From positions 1 to 33,925 of IMG/VR virus record IMGVR_UViG_3300028610_000992: 33,925 bases of DNA; one strand, 5' to 3'. Positions 4,226-31,702 of this stretch are shown piece after piece. Both the position numbers and the translations under genes were made by a program. Within the stretch, counting starts at the first letter, position 1. Each line of letters opens with the position of its first letter. Source of the stretch: a virus. Below the pieces are notes generated by a model. That model searched no databases. It had not been told where the DNA came from and saw only the letters and a list, made by a program, of their open reading frames with translations.

Positions 4226-5895
4226 TGGATTATAGACTTCCTAATGGTACAATCATCAGGAACGTACCTGATGATATGAAGAAACATGCGATTGCTGGTC
4301 GGGCAATACGGGAAGGTCTGGCTACTAATGCTGACTTTGGCTATGATGAAGCTGGGAGTGCAGCAGGAGAGACTAAAGGGGATCGGTTCATAGAAGGTAT
4401 GGGTCGGGGAGTTGTAGAAACAGGCCGACAAATTGGCAACATATTCGGTATCATCAGTGATGATGAGTTGGCAGATGCTGAGAAGCTAGATGCTGACCTC
4501 ATGGCCACTGGCATGGGACAGTTCGGGAGTGTGGTCGGAGAGATCGCAGCTACCCTACCAATCAGCGGGGGCGTGGGGCTGGCAGGCAAGGCCGCAGGAA
4601 CCGGGCTGAGAGCCGCTCGAGCAGCCGGTAACGTAAGTCGGCAGGGGTTTGCTAGGGCAGGCAGGGTACTACAAAGTCCGGTTGCTCGAGGGGCTGTCGA
4701 GGGCGCTGCTATAGGTGCGATATTTGGTGGCCCAGAACATCGGGTTGCTGGAGCAGCCGGAGGTGCAGGCTTTGGAGCTGGTGGTGGATGGTTAGGTCAG
4801 AAGATTGGGAATAGCTGGCGTAACTTCAAGCTGACTAGTATGACCCCCGAAGCTATAGCTCTGCAGAAGCAGACCGGGCAGTTTATCCCTCTCTCCCAGT
4901 CAGGGCAGGGCATCACTAAGATGTGGTACAATGGAGTACTGGCTAATCTTCCAGGTGTGTCCCGTAAAATTCATGGGCAGTACAGAGATGCAGTTAATGA
5001 CTTACGTCATTGGGCAGCAACGAAAGCACACCCTGATACTGAATGGGCCGAAGTCACTTTAGCTGGGGACGATAGTGTCGTAGCTATGATGAGTAAGCTG
5101 GATGACTTTTGGACGGGGGCATACGATGATATCAATAAGGCTGCTGTAGATGCCACTAGGTTGAAAGTACCTAAAGAAGTAAGGTCCTTACTAGAAACTG
5201 CTAGTGAAGGTTTGTACAAGATACCAAAAGGAACACAGCAACGAGGCGCACAACTTCTGAACCATCGTAATGCTCTTAATAACCTCCGGTCTCAATCTGG
5301 CAAAGGCCCTCTTCGGGCTGGCATCAATAAAAAGATTGATGAGGCTATTGAAAGCGTTGATGATGTACTTAAACGGGAAGTTGATGATGAAGTATTTGCT
5401 CGTTACGAGCAATTATCTGAACCATACAAGCATTATCAAATTCTTGGCAAGGCTTTTGACGATGCTGCCAAAAAGGGAGGGGAGTTTACTCCGGGGCAGC
5501 TCCTAGCTAGGTCAGCGAAAGGTGCATCTAAGAGTACCCCTGTTGAAGATTCTTACCTTGCGGTAGCTCGTAATGCTGCGAAAGCATTGCCAGATTTTCC
5601 AAGCAGGCCAGGAATTTATCAACTTATTGCAGCGACTCAAGTAGGTGGTGCTATCGCAACTGCCATGACAATGGGCCTCGCTAGTGCTGGTGTAGGACTA
5701 GCCGGTATCCTCGGGGTTGGCAGAATGATGGCGAGCAAAAGATTTCAACAGGTCATTACAGGTCAGCACAATATGCGAAGGTTGCTTGACCCCAAACATC
5801 ATCCATGGTTTGTTGCTTCACTAAGGCAGGCGGGTTTGACTGGCCGACAAATAACAGCGATTGAATCTGGTATCATAGCGCAGGGAGAAAAGTAA
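4225..5895 (+). CDS. Large Gly/Ala-rich internal virion (DNA ejection) protein candidate
   Basis: 556 residues from the ATG at 4225, which overlaps the preceding stop (TAATG); a TTG at 4201 would add eight residues but has nothing in its favour. It starts MDYRLPNGTIIRNVPDDM, a start I associate with podovirus virion proteins. Residues about 85-190 alternate Gly/Ala-rich hydrophobic stretches (GSVVGEIAATLPISGGVGLAG, AVEGAAIGAIFGG, AAGGAGFGAGGGWLG) that could insert in or cross membranes, followed by a mostly helical body. Another hydrophobic Gly/Ala stretch lies near residue 490 (ATQVGGAIATAMTMGLASAG). These features fit an ejected protein that forms or lines a channel through the cell envelope. 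No lysozyme or transglycosylase signature was recognised. Confidence 0.5.
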   Translation: MDYRLPNGTIIRNVPDDMKKHAIAGRAIREGLATNADFGYDEAGSAAGETKGDRFIEGMGRGVVETGRQIGNIFGIISDDELADAEKLDADLMATGMGQFGSVVGEIAATLPISGGVGLAGKAAGTGLRAARAAGNVSRQGFARAGRVLQSPVARGAVEGAAIGAIFGGPEHRVAGAAGGAGFGAGGGWLGQKIGNSWRNFKLTSMTPEAIALQKQTGQFIPLSQSGQGITKMWYNGVLANLPGVSRKIHGQYRDAVNDLRHWAATKAHPDTEWAEVTLAGDDSVVAMMSKLDDFWTGAYDDINKAAVDATRLKVPKEVRSLLETASEGLYKIPKGTQQRGAQLLNHRNALNNLRSQSGKGPLRAGINKKIDEAIESVDDVLKREVDDEVFARYEQLSEPYKHYQILGKAFDDAAKKGGEFTPGQLLARSAKGASKSTPVEDSYLAVARNAAKALPDFPSRPGIYQLIAATQVGGAIATAMTMGLASAGVGLAGILGVGRMMASKRFQQVITGQHNMRRLLDPKHHPWFVASLRQAGLTGRQITAIESGIIAQGEK

Positions 5896-10378: not shown

Positions 10379-10396
10379 GGCTACTTTTATATAATA
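10379..10396 (-). promoter_or_regulatory. Promoter-like box, shared WATTATRTAAANRTAGSC motif
   Basis: Read on the minus strand this is TATTATATAAAAGTAGCC, a close match (15 of 18) to the box at 25435-25452 and to those at 21003 and 21102. It sits between the ThyA-like gene and the small genes downstream, with TATTAT as a -10 box; the -35 region is poor. Confidence 0.4.
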
Positions 10397-13150: not shown

Positions 13151-13474
13151 TTACGCTTCAGCCGGGGGTGCAGTCAGTGTGCAAGCTTCAGCTTCAACAA
13201 AGAAGCGGAGCCAGCCACGAGGCTGCTCTTTTTCTTCGGCCTTTTCAGCAAGTTTGGCGAAATGCTCGACAGTCTTGCCGTCGCTCTTGGTCAGATATTC
13301 ATACCAACGAGCACGAGCACCACGGAACTTTTGTTCTCCATCGGTTAATCCGATGGTAGCTCCTTTGGCATACCCGTAATCTTTCCTGGGGGCGCGGGGC
13401 TTCTTATCGCCGGAAGCTTCTTTTTTGGCACTCGCAGCTTTTCCGGTCGGCGGCGTAACATTGGACTTGCCCAT
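13151..13474 (-). CDS. Small basic protein, paralogue of the 25530 gene product
   Basis: 107 residues from the ATG at 13474 (AAGGAG 7 bases upstream; the ATG at 13480 is too close). The first 40 residues are Lys/Ala/Pro-rich and probably disordered, like a histone tail (GKAASAKKEASGDKKPRAPRK). The rest is a small domain: KFRGARARWYEYL, GKTVEHFAKLAEK, QPRGWLRFFV. The protein at 25530 shares this layout (RGAR-x-W, G-x-x-V-x-x-F, GW-x-x-F), so the two are diverged paralogues. The basic tail suggests nucleic acid binding, perhaps DNA packing or regulation; this is inference. A promoter-like pair precedes it and a strong terminator follows, which suggests high independent expression. Confidence 0.7.
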   Translation of the reverse strand: MGKSNVTPPTGKAASAKKEASGDKKPRAPRKDYGYAKGATIGLTDGEQKFRGARARWYEYLTKSDGKTVEHFAKLAEKAEEKEQPRGWLRFFVEAEACTLTAPPAEA

Positions 13475-13513
13475 CTTCATTCTCCTTCTTAGGGTTTATA
13501 TGGGTGCATTGTG

Positions 13514-19382: not shown

Positions 19383-19410
19383 ATTACATAATACCACAGG
19401 GGGTTGTCAA
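19383..19410 (-). promoter_or_regulatory. Promoter for the polymerase operon, overlapped by a TTACATAAT site
   Basis: Minus strand: perfect TTGACA (19405-19410), 16-base spacer, TGTAAT (19383-19388). The ATTACATAAT site at 19383-19392 overlaps the -10 box, as expected for an operator. It would drive the genes from 19350 towards the polymerase. Confidence 0.5.
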
Positions 19411-21002: not shown

Positions 21003-21043
21003 GCCTACATTTACATAATTACATAACCGGGGCTGATGTGCAA
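21003..21043 (-). promoter_or_regulatory. Candidate promoter for the minus-strand block
   Basis: Minus strand: TTGCAC (21038-21043), 17-base spacer, AATTAT (21015-21020), within AATTATGTAAATGTAGGC (21003-21020), a member of the shared box. Two overlapping TTACATAA sites (21010-21027) cover the -10 area. The gap at 20985-21140 is a divergent promoter region. Confidence 0.45.
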
Positions 21044-21075
21044 GGCATCTTTATTCCCTGCATGAGGAACATAAA

Positions 21076-21120
21076 ATTATGTAAATCGGGCCGCTATGCG
21101 GTATTATATAAAGGTATAGC
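21076..21120 (+). promoter_or_regulatory. Candidate promoter for early plus-strand genes
   Basis: TATTATATAAAGGTATAGC at 21102-21120 matches the shared box and gives a TATTAT -10; ATGTAA 17 bases upstream (21079-21084) is inside an ATTATGTAAA site at 21076-21085. CCGCTATGCGG directly before the -10 box forms a small hairpin. Confidence 0.45.
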
Positions 21121-22842: not shown

Positions 22843-22871
22843 CGCGCACCGGGCGCGTATTATGGTAAGTA
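22843..22871 (+). promoter_or_regulatory. Hairpin and promoter-like box before the primase gene
   Basis: CGCGC (22843-22847) and GCGCG (22853-22857) form a short hairpin immediately followed by TATTATGGTAAG, related to the shared box. A ACTAACTAT leader follows at 22877-22885. It could be a terminator for the early genes, a promoter for the primase gene, or both. Confidence 0.35.
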
Positions 22872-22905: not shown

Positions 22906-24999
22906 GTGGCAACGACTCCCTTTTCCTTTACGGACTTCAATGAGCAACTAGAGTACTTAACGGAAAGGGGAATTGATGAAATAACTGTGAAGCGGCTAGG
23001 GCTTGAAGTTAAGACCTCCACATGGCTGCATGAGCAGGGGTTCCCAAAAGTACCAGGACTTAGTCGTGGTATAGTGTGGAGGCTACGTGACCCCGAGGGC
23101 GTCGCCACGGGCAAGCTCGGGGCTCGCGTATTCTACCAGCAAGGCATCGTACCCAATACCGACAAGCCTAAGTTCCTACCACCGAAGGGCCAAGTTCCTG
23201 GCCTATATTTCAGCCCACTAAGTCCCTGGGATAAACTGGAGTATAATGACAAAGTATATATCTGTGAGTCCTACCTAAAAGCAGATATCTGCGCCATGCT
23301 TGGGTTCCATGCCATTGGCGTGAGCGGATGCTGGGGCTGGTCATATATGAACAAACTAAACTGGGATTTCAAACTGCTGCCGTGGCATGACCTACGCCTT
23401 CAACCTATCGTGTGCATGGATTCAAATGTATGTGAAGCCAACCCAAAGCTCTGGCTGGCAGCTCGCAAACTATCAGCAAGCATGGAAGTAGAATATCAGG
23501 TCCACGCCAGCATTTTAGTCCTTCCACCCCCAAAGGAGGGCCAGTGGGGACTAGATGATTACTATGCGAAGTTTGGTAGGGATGCTACACAGGACTATCT
23601 ACATGGGGAGCCGGAACCCCTTCCAAGCGCGATGTCGGACCACTTAAAGATAATGGCACAGGAAGTATGTTGGTGTGACCAACTCGCCATGTGCATAAGG
23701 ATATCGGATGGCCTGCTAATGTCACGCGGTAATTTTGAATCAGGACATTATGCTGACAGGCAGGTATGGAACGAAGACGGTAAGCCTGTTCCTGTTGCTA
23801 AGACATATATGAAATGGCCCGAGCGCACAGTGGTCAACGACTATGTGTACCTTCCCGGCCAGCCTCGGTTAATTACCGAAGGGCGTGGGTCCTATAATGC
23901 GTGGGAAGGCATGGGCTGTGAACCACTGGCTGCTGATGTCTCCCTATTTACCGATTGGCTGGAGCTTGTATTTACAGAGCAAGAGCGGGAATATATCTTA
24001 GACTGGTGGGCATGGCAGCTCCAGAATCTAGGTGGTAAGCTCACTACAGGGCTGGTGATGGTAGGTCCACCGGGCATTGGGAAGGGCTGGGTGACTGCCA
24101 TATTCACGCGCATATTTGGGAACAAGAACGTAGCCAGTGTTCCCCTTACAGTGCTTGAAAAGAACTTTAACGCGGAAGTGGCGACCCGGCAGTTATTCGT
24201 TGTGGAGGAGACTGATGAAGTCGGTGGCAACAACCAGCTCGTGTACAACAAGCTGAAGGATATGATAACGAACCCCATATTGCGGTTGGAAAAGAAAGGT
24301 GTTGACGCCATATTTATTGACAATAGGCTGAACGTATTTCTAACAGGGAACCAAGTGGGGATATTTAAGCTGGACGCCAACGACCGTAGGTTCTATGTAG
24401 CTGAATGTGTGGAACCGGATAGCATGATTGCTGTCGCCAATTCCCAGTCATTTTGGGAGCACCGATGGGAGTGGCTGGACGCCGGTGGCGCAGAAGCGAT
24501 ATATGGCTATCTACTTAGCAGAGATCTCGCGCACTTTAACCCGAAGGGCATGGCCCCAATGACCGGCGCTAAGAAGGATATGATAGAACTGACCCACACC
24601 ACATTGGATCTCTGGGTGCAGCAACTCATTAGTGACCCTGAAGCTGTGCTGGTAGCAGGACATAGTGAAGTAGACGGATGCGTGGCCACCGCGAAAGAGC
24701 TCCTGTGGTTATATAAGGAAGGTCACGTGCGGCTGTGCGATTTAGACCGTGGTGATGTGAATGGCATGAATAGAGCATTAAAGAATGCTCGCGTGGAACT
24801 GGCCAATAGCGGGAACAAGATTAAGGTGGCTGGCTACCCGGCTCGTTATTTCATTATCCGGCCCACCCCACCGAGTGTCTTGAGTTGGGCTGCTTTAGTG
24901 ACAGATAGGGTGTTTTGGCAGAGGTTGGTAGCCAGCGAGCAGGGAAATGGTAGCCAGACAGAAGGTACTGGCTACCCCGACTCGAGTAAGAAATACTAA
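22906..24999 (+). CDS. Primase-helicase: N-terminal DUF3854/TOPRIM-like, C-terminal SF3 (DUF5906-type) helicase
   Basis: 697 residues; GTG start with AGGAG 6 bases upstream. The N-terminal half has VYICESYLKADICAMLGFHA (Glu121) then IVCMDSNVCE (Asp172), the DUF3854 TOPRIM-like pattern. The C-terminal half is an SF3-type ATPase, GLVMVGPPGIGKGWVTAIFT with Walker A GPPGIGKG (387-394), VVEETDEV (Walker B, 432-439) and an arginine-rich end. Such proteins replace separate primase and helicase in many phages and prime or unwind at the origin. Motifs look complete. The last 60 bases of the gene and the downstream gap hold GGTAGCCAG iterons, so the origin may begin inside it. Confidence 0.85.
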   Translation: MATTPFSFTDFNEQLEYLTERGIDEITVKRLGLEVKTSTWLHEQGFPKVPGLSRGIVWRLRDPEGVATGKLGARVFYQQGIVPNTDKPKFLPPKGQVPGLYFSPLSPWDKLEYNDKVYICESYLKADICAMLGFHAIGVSGCWGWSYMNKLNWDFKLLPWHDLRLQPIVCMDSNVCEANPKLWLAARKLSASMEVEYQVHASILVLPPPKEGQWGLDDYYAKFGRDATQDYLHGEPEPLPSAMSDHLKIMAQEVCWCDQLAMCIRISDGLLMSRGNFESGHYADRQVWNEDGKPVPVAKTYMKWPERTVVNDYVYLPGQPRLITEGRGSYNAWEGMGCEPLAADVSLFTDWLELVFTEQEREYILDWWAWQLQNLGGKLTTGLVMVGPPGIGKGWVTAIFTRIFGNKNVASVPLTVLEKNFNAEVATRQLFVVEETDEVGGNNQLVYNKLKDMITNPILRLEKKGVDAIFIDNRLNVFLTGNQVGIFKLDANDRRFYVAECVEPDSMIAVANSQSFWEHRWEWLDAGGAEAIYGYLLSRDLAHFNPKGMAPMTGAKKDMIELTHTTLDLWVQQLISDPEAVLVAGHSEVDGCVATAKELLWLYKEGHVRLCDLDRGDVNGMNRALKNARVELANSGNKIKVAGYPARYFIIRPTPPSVLSWAALVTDRVFWQRLVASEQGNGSQTEGTGYPDSSKKY

Positions 25000-25141
25000 T
25001 AAAAACAACGGGTCACAGGTTCAGGTAGCCAAGGTAGCCAGAGTAGCCAGTATATTCCCATTCCCATACGTGTACGCTAGACCTCATGTGTGATATATGC
25101 CCCCGTTAAGTCTGCTGGCTACTCTGGCTACCCGGCTACCT
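24830..25141. repeat. GGTAGCCAG-type iterons, candidate origin of replication
   Basis: Ten copies of GGTAGCCAG or its complement, with up to one or two mismatches: CTGGCTACC at 24830, GGTAGCCAG at 24927 and 24949, CTGGCTACC at 24968, then GGTAGCCAA at 25024, GGTAGCCAG at 25033, AGTAGCCAG at 25042, CTGGCTACT at 25115, CTGGCTACC at 25124 and CCGGCTACC at 25132. Four lie inside the 3' end of the primase gene and six outside. Direct and inverted orientation, clustering and position beside the primase gene fit replication initiator binding sites. Confidence 0.55.
25023..25141. repeat. Large inverted repeat
   Basis: Arms 25023-25050 and 25115-25141 are almost perfect inverted copies (one mismatch and one extra base) separated by 64 bases. 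Each arm holds three iteron copies. As RNA or single-stranded DNA it could form a stem of about 27 pairs. Confidence 0.7.
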
Positions 25142-25334
25142 AGGTCATATTTTCAGGTTCGAGGGATCCTCCAGCGACACACGAAGCTGCCGGAAGCCCT
25201 CGCTTCCCATCAAATCTCCCGAAGTCGGGTCGCCTTGACACGATAATCTAGGATTTTCATTGTCAAATGAAGCGAAAATCCTGGAGATCGGTCAGTCTCT
25301 CGTCTTCTCTCTTCTCTTCTCGTCATCTCTCTTC
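25142..25334. other. Structured non-coding tract with hairpins and pyrimidine-rich repeat
   Basis: No gene is visible. It holds hairpins GGAAGC/GCTTCC (25192-25207) and CCCGAAGTCGGG (25218-25229), a stem AGGATTTTC/GAAAATCCT (25250-25258, 25274-25282) with TTCATT/AATGAA inside it, and a pyrimidine tract (25296-25334) made of a near-perfect 17-base direct repeat with 20-base period (starting at 25298 and 25318). Confidence 0.6.
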
Positions 25335-25446
25335 ATTTAACATAATAAAATCTATTGAACATCAATATTATGTTAAATGGACAAATATTTTCTCTGGCAA
25401 TATCTGTGCCATTTAACATAATATCTAATTTGCGTATTATGTAAAG
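25335..25446. repeat. Four TTWACATAAT sites as two inverted pairs
   Basis: Sites: ATTTAACATAAT at 25335-25346 and 25411-25422 (plus), ATTATGTTAAAT at 25367-25378 and ATTATGTAAA at 25436-25445 (minus). Each pair is an inverted repeat, 20 and 13 bases apart. The second pair overlaps -35 and -10 boxes of a candidate promoter. Confidence 0.65.
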
Positions 25447-25452
25447 ATAGCC
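25413..25452 (+). promoter_or_regulatory. Candidate promoter for the 25530 gene with operator-like sites
   Basis: TTAACA (25413-25418), 16-base spacer, TATTAT (25435-25440), the latter inside TATTATGTAAAGATAGCC (25435-25452), the best member of the shared box. A TTWACATAAT site covers each box, a classic repressor layout. The start codon lies about 80 bases downstream. Confidence 0.5.
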
Positions 25453-25529
25453 CCATTTGGATATTTTCCCGTGGTACCATGAATTTACGGTGGCAAATTG
25501 GCCATCGCAACTAGCTAAGGTAAAATATC

Positions 25530-25799
25530 ATGTCTAGCAAAAATCCAGTAATTGCGGTAAATCCCAAGTTCAAGGGTACGTATAGGGGCGCTCGGGCGTC
25601 TTGGCACGGCGCAATGGCCGGTTTCGTAGGGCAGCCGGTTTCCGCATTCGCCGCTCACGTTACGTCCAAGGGCAACTGTCCTTCCATGCCCCAAACCGGC
25701 AAGTTAGTCGGTAAGGCGGAACCTGTGGCTGGCTGGGTCAGCTTTCTAACCATACCCAGCAAGAAAAACAGCCAAACCCCGGCCTACGTCATTAAGTAA
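25530..25799 (+). CDS. Small protein, diverged paralogue of the 13151 gene product
   Basis: 89 residues; AAGGTAAAATATC precedes the ATG, an AAGG core 9 bases away. The domain TYRGARASWHGAMAGFVGQP, VSAFAAHV and PVAGWVSFLT parallels KFRGARARWYEYL, VEHFAKLA and PRGWLRFFV in the minus-strand protein. It lacks the Lys/Ala-rich tail of that protein. Net charge is basic. It sits alone between two operator-like arrays and ends in a strong terminator, which suggests an independently regulated and abundant product, perhaps a DNA-binding regulator or origin protein; inference. Confidence 0.65.
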   Translation: MSSKNPVIAVNPKFKGTYRGARASWHGAMAGFVGQPVSAFAAHVTSKGNCPSMPQTGKLVGKAEPVAGWVSFLTIPSKKNSQTPAYVIK

Positions 25800-25816
25800 A
25801 ATCCGGGTGCATTATG

Positions 25817-25844
25817 GAAAACCGGGCTTGCCCGGTTTTCTTTT
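25817..25844 (+). terminator. Strong Rho-independent terminator
   Basis: GAAAACCGGGC (25817-25827) and GCCCGGTTTTC (25830-25840) form an 11-pair perfect stem around TT, followed by TTTT. It closes the small gene at 25530. Confidence 0.85.
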
Positions 25845-25965
25845 ACATAATGTAGATGTATTATGTTAAATGGATAGTCCTTAACATAATGCATGACTTC
25901 CTTTACATAATAATCTGCTGGATTATGTTAAGGAGTGGATTATGTTAAGTCGCTCATTATGTTAA
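25841..25965. repeat. Seven TTWACATAAT sites in an array
   Basis: Sites at 25841-25851 (plus), 25860-25871 (minus), 25881-25890 and 25902-25911 (plus), and 25922-25931, 25939-25948, 25956-25965 (minus). The first four are spaced 19 to 21 bases, the last three exactly 17 bases apart. No gene is visible between 25800 and 26091. The spacing fits cooperative binding by a dimer, or iterons. Confidence 0.7.
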
Positions 25966-26053
25966 GTCCCCCCGATGACTTACCCCACAAATCACAATAA
26001 CTATTACTCGACCTGGACGCATAAAATGAGGTTGTGAGCTCCTCACAGATAGC

Positions 26054-26083
26054 TTGCAATTCGGGGCATGGAGGGCGTATAAT
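26054..26083 (+). promoter_or_regulatory. Promoter for the packaging/late genes
   Basis: TTGCAA (26054-26059), 18-base spacer, perfect TATAAT (26078-26083). Only 8 bases separate TATAAT from the ATG at 26092, so the transcript start should fall on or next to the start codon. Confidence 0.6.
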
Positions 26084-26091
26084 TCTGACCT

Positions 26092-26493
26092 ATGAGTAAG
26101 GAGCAAACGGTTCAGCAGTTCATTCCAGCTGAGGATTACGTGGAGGCTGAAGAGGCCGAAACGCAGCGCGTCTATGAGGATCCTCAACCTTACAGTGACG
26201 TAGCTGAAGACTGCAAGGAGTTGAGCAAACTTGCTACCTCTGGGAACGGAGTCAGTAGGATTAGCGTACCGCGCGAGCTACAGCGGAAAAGAGTGGTCAA
26301 CGCCTTCCAGGATGCGTTTGAGCTGATAGGCGGCGTCCCCCGTCTGGCACATTGGGCTGACCAATCTCCGTCAGCCTTTTATAAGCTCTACGCTCGGTTA
26401 CTCCCCACTACGGCTCAGCAACAGCTTGAGCATAGTGGGGAGATAATCGTTAAGCACGTCTTACCGAGGGGTCCCCTCGATGAGTCAGAGTAA
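26092..26493 (+). CDS. Putative terminase small subunit
   Basis: 133 residues. There is no ribosome binding site at a useful distance: the -10 box ends 8 bases before the ATG, so the mRNA is probably leaderless. The N-terminal half is acidic and polar. The C-terminal part VVNAFQDAFELIGGVPRLAHWAD then PSAFYKLYARLLP resembles the small-terminase-like pattern (aFELiGGvprLa-WA-FYkLyaRLiP) found upstream of TerL in podoviruses. Small terminases bind the packaging start site. Position at the head of the packaging operon supports it. The exact family is recalled, not confirmed. Confidence 0.6.
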   Translation: MSKEQTVQQFIPAEDYVEAEEAETQRVYEDPQPYSDVAEDCKELSKLATSGNGVSRISVPRELQRKRVVNAFQDAFELIGGVPRLAHWADQSPSAFYKLYARLLPTTAQQQLEHSGEIIVKHVLPRGPLDESE

Positions 26494-27963: not shown

Positions 27964-28185
27964 ATGGCCCGGAAGACCCCAAAACCGAAAAAAGTGAAAA
28001 ATGGCAAAATCGAGGTTGAGGGGAGCCCTGAAATTTTTGACCGATTCTTTGCAGAACGTGAACGGGACCGGCTTCAGGACCGTCTGACACGAATTACGGC
28101 CCAGAAAGTAGAATTTGAGGATGAAATCCTTAATGTGGCGGATGATATTGCCAGTTGGGATGCGGTGATCGCCCAACTCCCATGA
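27964..28185 (+). CDS. Small coiled-coil protein
   Basis: 73 residues; AGGAGAG precedes the ATG. Basic N-terminus (ARKTPKPKKVKNGKIEVEG) then a helical coiled segment (RDRLQDRLTRITAQKVEFED). Its end overlaps TerL (ATGA). No family recognised. Confidence 0.5.
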   Translation: MARKTPKPKKVKNGKIEVEGSPEIFDRFFAERERDRLQDRLTRITAQKVEFEDEILNVADDIASWDAVIAQLP

Positions 28186-29564
28186 GTAAACAGATTGAGG
28201 TATATTATGAGCCCCGGCCAGCCTTCTTGCCCTTCCACGCACGTCAGGAAAGATGGGCATGTATCGTCTTTCACAGACGAGGAGGGAAAACGGTCGGCTG
28301 TATCAACGATATCCATACTCGAGCCTTATATACCTCGAAAAAGAACGCAAGATACGCTTACATCGCTCCGTTCTACCGACAAGCTAAGGACGTTGCATGG
28401 ATGTATCTTAAGGATTCCACCCAAGATTCTGCTGTTAAGGTAAAAGAAAGTGAATTGTCAGTTGAACTATTTAACGGAGCTAAAATCACCCTCTACGGAG
28501 CCGATAACCCCGATGCCCTCCGAGGACTTTATCTCGATGGTGTCATCCTTGATGAATTCGGCGATTGTCGTCCTTCCCTCTGGGGAGAGGTTGTACTCCC
28601 CACACTTGCAGATAGGAAAGGATGGGCAGTATTCATTGGAACCCCCAAAGGAAAGAATCATTTCTGGCAAGTAAGGGAGCGAGCAAAGCGTGAGAAGAAT
28701 TGGTTTTACCTTGAAGTTAAGGCCAGTGATCCTGGGTGCGTCCTCCCTCAGGAAGAGCTTGATGAAATGCGAGCCCAGATGTCCGAGGCGCAGTACGACC
28801 AAGAACTTGAGTGTTCCTTTGAGGCAGCGGTATTAGGAACATACTATGCTAAACAGATATCGCTTATGGAGGCTGGCCGCATTGATGGCAAGGCGGGAGA
28901 ACCTCAAATTGGAATTTACAAGCACGATCGCGACTTTCCAGTTTCAGCTGCTCAAGACATCGGGTACAGTGATTCAAATGCAATTTGGTTCTGGCAACAC
29001 CGACCCGACGGTATTGCGGTTATTGACTATGAAGAACATCATGGAGAGGCCCTGCCCTTCTACTTTGAACTTTTAAGGAATAAGCCTTATGACTACGAAG
29101 CTATCTGGTTACCTCACGATGCTAAGGCAAAAAGCCTTCAAACTGGCCGCACCACTGTTGAGCAGTACCTTAATGAAGTGGACGATGAGGGGAACGGAGA
29201 GTTCCCAATTAGGATTGCTCCTCGTCTTGATGTACAGCATGGTATTGACGCTGTTCGCTTTATACTGCCTCATTGCTACATAGACCAAGCGAACTGTGGA
29301 GATGGTATTGAAGCTTTACGAGCATACAGGAGGAGGTACGATGAGATAACTAAAGCCTTCAGCCCCAAACCTCTGCATGATTGGAGTTCTAATGGGGCTG
29401 ACGCCTTTAGATATTTTGCTCTGGTAGCTAAGGAGAAGATTGAAACACGTTCTTTAGGCCAGATTTTACAAGAACAGAATTATACGCCCCCAGGAATGAC
29501 TCTGGAGGCACTATTCCACGACCGGGCAATGAAAAAACCCCGATTTAATAGGCAGCGAGTATAA
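28182..29564 (+). CDS. terL: Terminase large subunit
   Basis: 460 residues from the ATG at 28182 overlapping the previous stop. ATPase: HRRGGKT (31-37), a degenerate Walker A usual in TerL; Walker B GVILDEF (120-126); coupling motif FIGTPKG (151-157). RNase H-like nuclease: DIGYSDSNAI (Asp259), LPHDAKAK (Asp313) and DWSSNGADAF (Asp400, Asp407). The set is complete, so it drives DNA into the prohead and cuts it. The family is clear; the packaging mode (headful or direct repeats) is not visible here. Confidence 0.92.
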   Translation: MSKQIEVYYEPRPAFLPFHARQERWACIVFHRRGGKTVGCINDIHTRALYTSKKNARYAYIAPFYRQAKDVAWMYLKDSTQDSAVKVKESELSVELFNGAKITLYGADNPDALRGLYLDGVILDEFGDCRPSLWGEVVLPTLADRKGWAVFIGTPKGKNHFWQVRERAKREKNWFYLEVKASDPGCVLPQEELDEMRAQMSEAQYDQELECSFEAAVLGTYYAKQISLMEAGRIDGKAGEPQIGIYKHDRDFPVSAAQDIGYSDSNAIWFWQHRPDGIAVIDYEEHHGEALPFYFELLRNKPYDYEAIWLPHDAKAKSLQTGRTTVEQYLNEVDDEGNGEFPIRIAPRLDVQHGIDAVRFILPHCYIDQANCGDGIEALRAYRRRYDEITKAFSPKPLHDWSSNGADAFRYFALVAKEKIETRSLGQILQEQNYTPPGMTLEALFHDRAMKKPRFNRQRV

Positions 29565-31702
29565 TGGACGACCAACGAACCCCGATGGGTAGTACCCTCT
29601 CCCCCATTAAGACTAGTAAGGATTTCAAAAGGACTCCGACCGGCTGGTACAAGAGGTGGGACTCTGAAATGGTCGCTGCTAACAAGCGAATCCGTAAATG
29701 GCACAGACAAGGCGACAAAATACAGGCAAGATATGCCGACCGAAGAGGTATGCAGGGGAGTCGAGGGTACTCTACAGACGAAACTGGTGCTGGCGGGAAT
29801 ATGTTCAGAGTCAATCTGTTCAATGCCAATATCAATACTCAGCGCTCCATGCTATACGGGAGTACGCCAAAGGTAGACGTCTCGCGCCGCTTTGCCGACG
29901 CAGATGACGACGCGGCGCGGGTTGGTTCACTTATCCTCAATCGTTTACTGAACACTAGCATTGAGGCCTCTGGTGATGATTACAAATCGTGCCTCCAGTA
30001 TAGCCTAGATGACAGGCTACTCCCCGGCCTCGGCATTGCGCGTGTTCGCTATGAAGTGGAAATGGAGAAAGTTGAACACGAGGAAATTGTTGGCGACGAT
30101 AATATGGTGCAGGCTGAGGCCTATACTGAAGAAAAAATACTTAGCGAAAAAGCCCCGGTGGACTATGTTCACTGGGATGACTTCAGGTGGGGCTGGGCGC
30201 GAACGTGGTCTGAAGTGCCGTGGATTGCCTTCCGTTCATACCTTACTAAGGATCAAGCCACGGCACGATTTGGTAAGGAGATGGCTGATCAGCTCCAGTA
30301 CAAGAATAAGAGTATTGGGGAGCTAGTTGAAAAACGGCTAACCGCAGAAGAAACAGCGGATGCGTGGGATAGGGCTGAAGTGTGGGAAATTTGGGACAAA
30401 CAGACAGAACAGGTTTTCTGGTGGTCCAAAGGTTTTGAACGCATCCTGGATAAAAAGAGGGACCCTCTGAAGTTATTTGGCTTCTGGCCCACGCCAGAGC
30501 CAATGCTCGCTAACTGCGTCTCGAATCTGCTCTTGCCGCAGCCGGACTTTGCCATTGCCCAAGATCTCTACAACGAAATCGATGAACTGGAGACGCGGAT
30601 TGGCATCATAACGACTGCGGTGAGGGTAGTTGGTGTATACGATGAAGCTAATGATGGTGTGAAGCGTATGCTGGAGGAGGGTTTTGAAAATGATCTGATT
30701 CCAATGAAGAATTGGGCACAGTTCTCTGAAAAGGGCGGTATGGACGGGCAGGTGGATTGGCTCCCCATTGAAGACATTGTTAATGCTCTTGAAAAGTTGG
30801 TGTCCCAGCGATCAGATGCAATGGCCCTCCTGTATGAGGTCACAGGGATGGCCGATATTGTCCGAGGAGCATCTGGGCCATCACGTGAGTCGGCTGCTGC
30901 TGCTGAAGGTAAGAAGACCTTTGCTTCTATACGCATACAGGCTCTACAAGAGGACTTCGCACGGTTTGCCAGTGATCTTATGGCGCTGAAGGGTGAAGTT
31001 ATCTGCAAACACTTTGAAGCCAAAACCATTGTAGAGGATTCTAATATCCTGCGAACGCCTGATGGCCAAAATCAAGAGTTGATTCAGTCAGCTTTGAAAC
31101 TTCTTAAGGACCCAGAAGAGGCTGCATGGCGCATTGAAGTCCGACCAGAGTCAGTGGCTATGGTGGATTATGATAAGATGCGGCAGGAACGTGGTGAATT
31201 TATTACTTCTGTTTCTACTTTCATGCAATCGGCCGCGCCTCTGGTACAGATGGATCCAAACGCCACTCCCACACTTATTGAGTTGCTCAAATGGGCAGTC
31301 GCAGGCTTCAAAGGTAGCCGTGAGATTGAGGGTACGCTTGATAGGGCTATTGAGGCTATGCAGAAAGCTCAACAGCAGGAGCAACAGGAAGAAGAGGGTC
31401 CCAGCGAGGCCGAACTGGAGATGCAGCGGTCCCAGCAGGAGCACCAGCAGGATATGGAGCTTCAGGCTTCCAAGCATCAGCAATCTATGCAAGAACTACA
31501 GGCCAAGCATCAGGCAGATATGAAGGAAGCACAGACAGAATTCCGGATGGAGATGAAGAAGATACAGGCCGAAATGCTGGCAGCAATACAAGAGGAAATT
31601 GCTCAGTCGCAGGCAGCGATGGTACAGGACGATCGCGAAACTGCCAATACAATGAAAATAGACGACAACAAGCCGAGGCCTGGAGGCGACAACGGTGCGT
31701 AG
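29564..31702 (+). CDS. Portal protein
   Basis: 712 residues; TAATG overlap with TerL. The N-terminal domain has the usual portal pattern (FKRTPTGWYKRWDSEMVAAN then NLFNANINTQRSMLYGSTPK, LRRFA). The C-terminal 170 residues are Gln-, Glu- and Lys-rich with long heptad-like stretches (SELEMQRSQQEHQQDMELQA type), a predicted coiled coil that could form the long tunnel or barrel inside the capsid. It forms the dodecameric ring for DNA passage and joins head and tail. Position after TerL and before scaffold is standard. Confidence 0.88.
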   Translation: MDDQRTPMGSTLSPIKTSKDFKRTPTGWYKRWDSEMVAANKRIRKWHRQGDKIQARYADRRGMQGSRGYSTDETGAGGNMFRVNLFNANINTQRSMLYGSTPKVDVSRRFADADDDAARVGSLILNRLLNTSIEASGDDYKSCLQYSLDDRLLPGLGIARVRYEVEMEKVEHEEIVGDDNMVQAEAYTEEKILSEKAPVDYVHWDDFRWGWARTWSEVPWIAFRSYLTKDQATARFGKEMADQLQYKNKSIGELVEKRLTAEETADAWDRAEVWEIWDKQTEQVFWWSKGFERILDKKRDPLKLFGFWPTPEPMLANCVSNLLLPQPDFAIAQDLYNEIDELETRIGIITTAVRVVGVYDEANDGVKRMLEEGFENDLIPMKNWAQFSEKGGMDGQVDWLPIEDIVNALEKLVSQRSDAMALLYEVTGMADIVRGASGPSRESAAAAEGKKTFASIRIQALQEDFARFASDLMALKGEVICKHFEAKTIVEDSNILRTPDGQNQELIQSALKLLKDPEEAAWRIEVRPESVAMVDYDKMRQERGEFITSVSTFMQSAAPLVQMDPNATPTLIELLKWAVAGFKGSREIEGTLDRAIEAMQKAQQQEQQEEEGPSEAELEMQRSQQEHQQDMELQASKHQQSMQELQAKHQADMKEAQTEFRMEMKKIQAEMLAAIQEEIAQSQAAMVQDDRETANTMKIDDNKPRPGGDNGA

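Follow-up and report, generated by a model that had tools for sequence, protein, structure and literature searches.

XerD-type half-sites of dif form arrays beside the packaging genes of a phage family and recur in unrelated phages

Results

The gene order around the repeats

The window, that is, the whole stretch of 33,925 bases analysed here, is the IMG/VR record IMGVR_UViG_3300028610_000992. Its primase-helicase gene begins at 22906, and its packaging block opens with a putative terS gene (26092-26493, plus strand), recognized only by its position before TerL and portal and by an HTH-like sequence; TerL (28155-29564) and portal (29564-31702) were assigned with PHROGs. Upstream of this block, between two arrays of repeats, lies a small plus-strand gene of 89 aa (25530-25799). 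It is a paralogue of the gene at 13151-13480, and the two small proteins form one family, RGARAxW...GKPVxxF...GWLxxF, with no match in Pfam, PHROG or PDB. For the 25530 protein, AlphaFold predicts a confident small fold (pLDDT 87), and this model likewise found no PDB match. Homologues of the 25530 gene occupy the same place in G001-G004, G006, G010, G018, L053, L066, L067 and L088.

The 25530 gene is followed by an intrinsic terminator on the plus strand, the inverted repeat GAAAACCGGGC-TT-GCCCGGTTTTC-TTTT (25817-25844), which extends into the second array. The late (terS) promoter, TTGCAA-18-TATAAT (26054-26083, plus strand), is situated 87 bp 3′ of this array. Its −10 box ends 8 bases before the start codon (26054-26092), which could leave the late transcript almost without a leader; both the promoter and this arrangement are conserved in relatives. 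Between the second array and terS lies a conserved non-coding block, CCCCCCG...ACAAATCACAATAACTATTACTCGA (25966-26020), which may serve as a packaging site or in late control, and similar CCCCCCGG...ACAATCACTCCA blocks are present in G018, L053, L066 and L088. The array region had no match in Rfam.

The motif analysed was TTWACATAAT. An exact search found it eleven times around the 25530 gene, on the 5′ side at 25337+, 25367-, 25413+ and 25436- and on the 3′ side at 25842+, 25860-, 25881+, 25902+, 25922-, 25939- and 25956-, and twice more at 21.0 kb (21010+ and 21076-). The entire virus record holds no exact copy beyond these 13, as against 0.11 expected in 33,925 bases and a maximum of 1 in 100 dinucleotide shuffles. 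The first-pass annotation of this DNA, which had described eleven sites around the gene, is thus confirmed with coordinates agreeing within 2 bases, and the sequence also bears out the inverted pairs and the spacing of 17 bp (25922/25939/25956) that it reported. The copies that it had placed elsewhere proved to be of unequal quality: those at 21010 and 21076 are exact, those at 19383 and 22859 carry one mismatch, and that at 21018 is a weaker, overlapping copy. Other one-mismatch copies, TTTATATAAT at 10386, 21103 and 21529, could be nothing more than sigma70 −10 boxes and were left out of the half-site counts given below.

The repeats are XerD arms of dif

The chromosome dimer-resolution site is known as dif. 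Read on the opposite strand, TTWACATAAT becomes ATTATGTWAA(R)T, the XerD half-site (right arm) of dif; the comparison with dif was suggested by recombination repeats of Acinetobacter plasmids found in the literature (PMC3882262). A published table of dif sites (PMC2731167) lists the XerD arms TTATGTTAAAT, TTATGTAAAGT, TTATGTCAAAT and TTATGTTAAGT. We scored the window with a XerD matrix built from 33 chromosomal dif sites of this table, without any phage data. Ranks 1-9 were taken by nine array sites, of which four match the consensus exactly, and rank 10 by a site preceding the primase gene. At 10 bits or above the window contained 17 matches, compared with 2-5 in each of ten Markov genomes.

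Array 1 (25335-25447) consists of four 12-mer half-sites, at 25335-25346 (minus), 25367-25378 (plus), 25411-25422 (minus) and 25436-25447 (plus), scoring 21.5, 21.5, 21.5 and 11.3 bits, and is found in all relatives that cover the region. Array 2 (25840-25967) contains seven half-sites of 12 bp, starting at 25840 (minus), 25860 (plus), 25879 (minus), 25900 (minus), 25922 (plus), 25939 (plus) and 25956 (plus), with 12.9-21.5 bits; relatives keep the motif and differ in the number of copies. A single half-site ATTATGGTAAGT (22859-22870, plus; 14.8 bits, rank 10) stands 36 bp 5′ of the primase-helicase gene, and a half-site is found at this position also in G001, G002 and G003. Two more, both with the exact motif, lie between the divergent early operons (21008-21087): 21008-21019 (minus, 9.7 bits) and 21076-21087 (plus, 10.4 bits), one of which is kept in G001.

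Logos of 174 and 203 array sites yielded the 11-mer TTATGTTAAAT, in which positions 24 and 27 vary and A25 is fixed, just as reported for dif. In the logo seeded only on TTATG, A25 reached 0.91, with T, A or C at position 24 and A or G at position 27. Individual phages prefer individual variants, mostly TTATGTAAAGT in L322, TTATGTCAAGT in L279 and TTATGTTAAAT in G012; all three are known in chromosomal dif, the C24 form (TTATGTCAAGT) also from Burkholderia. By motif identity, the repeats are XerD half-sites, and it is very probable on these sequence grounds that the XerD of the host binds them in vivo.

The arrays lack the anatomy of a recombination site

A XerC half-site at dif spacing, i.e., across a 6-bp centre, was found nowhere in the window: at the best XerD sites the XerC matrix gave −22 to 0 bits, the median for real XerC arms being 12.2. 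Only one of 31 pairs of facing arms is separated by a 6-bp centre. Logos and matrices alike therefore show XerD arms without XerC arms, as in the XDS-type sites of B. subtilis. Tyrosine recombinases (PF00589) were not detected in 15 related or array-bearing phages, all 14 control genomes being positive, nor was a dif-like attP found in the window or an integrase in the 15 phages, as far as phage DNA taken apart from any host genome carrying an integrated copy can tell. Since both a XerC arm at dif spacing and a phage tyrosine recombinase are missing, the arrays are best described as XerD-only sites for a host protein.

These data bear directly on the reading of the arrays as Xer recombination sites, serving integration at the host dif as in IMEX phages, multimer resolution, or movement of the 25530 gene as a pdif module. 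Such a role would agree with the XerD arms themselves, with inverted arms flanking a gene, with the existence of phages and plasmid modules that exploit Xer (PMC5357621), and with the same arm in the plasmid repeats of PMC3882262. However, besides the absent XerC arm and 6-bp centre, there are 7-15 copies where one suffices, and the gene order is fixed in all relatives. We regard recombination as a very unlikely purpose of the arrays.

Conservation of the layout in relatives

Searches with the 25530, primase and portal homologues retrieved related IMG/VR contigs (G001-G006, G010, G018 and, further out, L053, L066, L067 and L088). Every contig covering the region has the motif at the equivalent place, on one or both sides of a 25530-like gene and upstream of terS/terL, and this layout persists down to about 43% portal identity. 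The first-pass annotation would have given up the motif had it occurred at random frequency or been missing from close relatives, and neither is the case. Closer relatives carry 7-15 exact copies; single sites are gained and lost while the motif is retained. Counted as arms, there are 11-17 per genome, up to 17 of them within about 650 bp. The motif stays unchanged while the 25530 homologue falls to 25-40% identity and primases to 49%. Some contigs end inside the array; physical genome ends were considered, but these may instead be assembly breaks at repeats.

A second repeat family, of period about 9 (GGTAGCCAG), occupies 24926-25144, where it lies on either side of an AT-rich stretch of about 100 bp with which the primase gene ends. 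Its place and period are kept in G010, G018, L066, L067 and L053, and its unit is changed (AAGTTGCCA, TAACAGGAG, GACAGTTAA, GTAACACTG and GTTGCACGC), which makes it a candidate set of origin iterons evolving in concert with an initiator.

That TTWACATAAT itself represents replication iterons, as had also been proposed, here with the primase-helicase or a different initiator of the phage as binder, might seem plausible from the start of the array about 340 bp after the primase-helicase gene and from the origin-like period-9 repeat in the same intergenic region. Yet the half-sites occur in both orientations at variable distances of 13-60 bp, so that the regular, helix-phased direct repeats looked for were not found. 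Moreover, the motif does not follow the diverging primases and recurs in two phages, G012 and G021, that have no replication protein in common with the window, whereas the period-9 repeat, which is unlike the array motif and looks more iteron-like, does change with lineage. The iteron reading of the arrays is thus extremely improbable.

Similar arrays in unrelated phages

Similar arrays were found in about ten further phage groups. G012 and G021, which are related to each other, have not a single protein in common with the window at E<1e-4; G011, G022 and G023 share only a few ordinary proteins (terminase, polymerase or capsid). Further arrays are present in L322, L279, L293, L297, L107 and the MAG contig L244; for several of the array phages the analysis covered part of the genome. 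No match to the 25530 family was found in the fetched DNA of G011, G012, G021, G022 and G023, and no cognate regulator gene is common to the window and G012/G021, full proteomes having been compared for some of the phage groups. A BLAST search of the array against cultured phages returned chance matches only. Motif clusters from AT-rich contigs were left out of account; L286, which was inspected as the only one of them, turned out to be a coding repeat.

The earlier suggestion of an operator for a phage regulator acting on several transcription units, possibly the 25530 product, can therefore be kept in one half only. Arms are found where the early promoters diverge (21.0 kb), 5′ of the primase gene (at 22859) and about the 25530 and terS promoters, which fits a protein-binding site used at several units. 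A phage regulator is not supported, because the motif is arrayed in phages without a shared protein or a 25530-family match and because it equals the XerD arm of dif, the site of a host protein. As unrelated phages carry the arrays and their arms follow dif-type variants, the simplest reading is a binder common to all their hosts.

Wherever terL was located, in the window as in every other such contig, the array lies upstream of it: by about 0.4 kb in G011, by 1 to 4 kb in the window, G023, G030/L279, G031/L322 and G026/L107, and by more in G029 and, if circular, in G022. The arrays thus tend to mark the border of the packaging block.

Coupling to promoter-like elements

The two inverted half-sites at 25411 and 25436 together form a sigma70-like promoter, TTAACA-16-TATTAT (25413-25440, plus strand), which can also be read on the other strand (25445-25418); six relatives have the block TTTGCGTATTATGTAAA and the right arm without any change. 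A sigma54-like −24/−12 element TGGCACAGATATTGCC (25396-25411, minus strand) overlaps the half-site 25411-25422 by one base, the last of the arm, and scores 16.2 bits with a matrix of published ChIP-associated Salmonella sites (PMC3844500; own scores at least 14.9). The element is kept in G001-G004, G006 and G010. The genome-best match to this matrix falls inside the array in G001-G004, G010, G012, G018, G022 and G023, the window element being the second best of its genome.

Arms in other groups, too, often adjoin such an element at a fixed spacing, and the adjoining sequences conform to the sigma54 −24/−12 consensus TGGCAYR-N4-TTGC. Across groups, TGGCA abuts 21 of 165 arms (about 0.45 expected), a count that is partly ascertained, as G022, G023, L107 and L244 were found by a TGGCA-containing pattern; the window family, G012 and L293 came to light in other ways. 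A palindrome TGGCA-N7-TGCCA for some other factor was considered and rejected: the right half varies (CCA/CAT/CTA), so that the fit of the sigma54 matrix is equal or superior. In G011, which carries about 30 arms, there is no sigma54-like element.

When a genome collection was scanned for the composite of arm and sigma54-like element, one of six matches was real, and since this one, on an Acidithiobacillales MAG contig, looks phage-derived, the composite is not a chromosomal feature in that collection. The contig, L244, bears at 4650-5127, at its end, an array of XerD arms with abutting sigma54-like elements; it is probably a phage contig, and its bin gives a possible clue to the host. Separately, four AT-rich phages (L250, L251, L253 and L255) have few XerD arms but several textbook sigma54 elements, which lie within a few hundred bases of one another, possibly reflecting a wider phage use of sigma54.

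The promoter context might also suit an operator or upstream activating site of a factor other than XerD, a phage regulator or a host enhancer-binding protein, with the likeness to dif due to chance: the sites do lie at promoter regions, several of them beside sigma54-like elements. But no phage protein links G012/G021 to the window family, the half-sites stand singly, face either way and show no phasing, unlike paired palindromic enhancers, and a match over 11 positions including the variable positions of dif itself would have to be a coincidence. This explanation appears distinctly unlikely.

Discussion

In this work, we describe XerD-only arrays that, judged by sequence, probably recruit host XerD to the boundary between early and late genes of the phage, where it would act on the DNA as a regulator or roadblock. 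What the sequences document is the identity of the motif, its conservation, the absence of XerC arms and of a phage recombinase, and the coupling to promoter-like elements. Between the replication and the packaging/late blocks, the arms would recruit XerD encoded by the host, not by the phage, as a plain sequence-specific DNA-binding protein. Early in infection, XerD would cover the promoter elements of this hub, namely, the two-arm sigma70 promoter, the arm-abutting sigma54-like element and the early and primase promoter regions with their arms, and so hold the hub back. As replication multiplies the arms, 11-17 with each genome, the limited XerD of the host would be titrated and the hub would open, resulting in a late switch that senses copy number. 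This regulatory, titration-based mode is a tentative proposal, and the arrays are larger than promoter occlusion needs. The open-licence literature searched contained no report of XerD as a promoter regulator.

Titration could in principle be the whole purpose, the arrays being decoys that draw XerD away from dif and disturb dif recombination and cell division, without any local function. The number of arms per genome and the turnover of single arms between relatives are compatible with this, as titration demands less of the exact site position. A pure decoy, on the other hand, needs neither the conserved position upstream of the packaging block nor the coupling to promoter-like elements, and we consider it quite improbable.

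A serious alternative, although unlikely in our estimation, is that the arrays are phage counterparts of the XerD-only sites in the B. subtilis terminus: host XerD bound to the arrays would unload SMC from the phage genome, or hinder related machines such as Wadjet, so that the DNA near the packaging start stays clear of loop-extruding complexes. It is serious because SMC unloading by bound XerD is established in the B. subtilis terminus region, according to the passages citing Karaboja 2021 in PMC10945525 and PMC12322038. The XerD-only clusters match the anatomy of those sites and lie upstream of terminase genes, and SMC can be a phage target, as T7 inactivates MukBEF by a protein (PMC7617805). 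However, it would leave unexplained why the spacing to sigma54-like elements is fixed and why single arms stand in the promoter regions of the early and primase genes; in the literature searched, XerD-driven SMC unloading is discussed for B. subtilis only, and the SMC type of the hosts may differ. Were this alternative nevertheless true, many unrelated tailed-phage lineages would carry cis-acting XerD arrays that load host XerD beside the packaging start and thereby rid the phage DNA of SMC, MukBEF-like or Wadjet complexes, a prospect with a low chance of being right, and the arrays would be a DNA-encoded counterpart of protein inhibitors of SMC such as T7 gp5.9.

Recruitment of host XerD as a regulator or roadblock, the reading that we prefer, would extend what is known. 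That phages use Xer proteins for integration has been established; XerD-only arrays without recombination anatomy that recur in about ten groups of phages and keep to the early/late boundary were not described in the open-licence literature searched. Should XerD bind them, it would join the host factors that shape phage gene control or genome topology, and the arrays would offer a ready test piece for XerD roles beyond recombination, such as SMC unloading and promoter occupancy. The coupling to sigma54-like elements points to phage use of that form of polymerase.

Comparison with known systems

The closest cultured relatives are the Myxococcus phages Mx8 and Mx9 (portal identity 44%); Mx8 has an annotated integrase and, in the 41.8 kb examined, no match to the XerD arm. 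The IMEX phages CTXphi, VGJphi and TLCphi resemble the array phages in using host Xer proteins. Their attP is a dif-like integration site, often with a degenerate XerD arm (PMC3025954), whereas the XerD arms of the arrays are perfect, multiple and free of XerC arms, and their carriers are tailed dsDNA phages. The pdif/Re27 recombination-associated repeats of Acinetobacter plasmids (PMC3882262) have the arm ATTTAACATAAT in common with the arrays, and here, too, arm-bearing sites flank a gene; in contrast, the plasmid repeats possess a XerC as well as a XerD arm and are associated with the exchange of modules, while the phage arrays have XerD arms only and a fixed gene order. With chromosomal dif (PMC2731167) the arrays share the 11-bp XerD arm and its conserved and variable positions, but they occur in many copies without the XerC arm and the 6-bp centre and are by anatomy not a recombination site. 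A further parallel, as far as PMC12322038 and PMC10945525 convey the findings of Karaboja 2021, is offered by the XerD-only sites of the B. subtilis terminus, which also bind XerD and are distinct from dif. Compared with these, the arrays lie on phage genomes, beside phage promoters and packaging genes, with as many as 17 arms packed into about 650 bp, and their arms follow the variants of proteobacterial dif.
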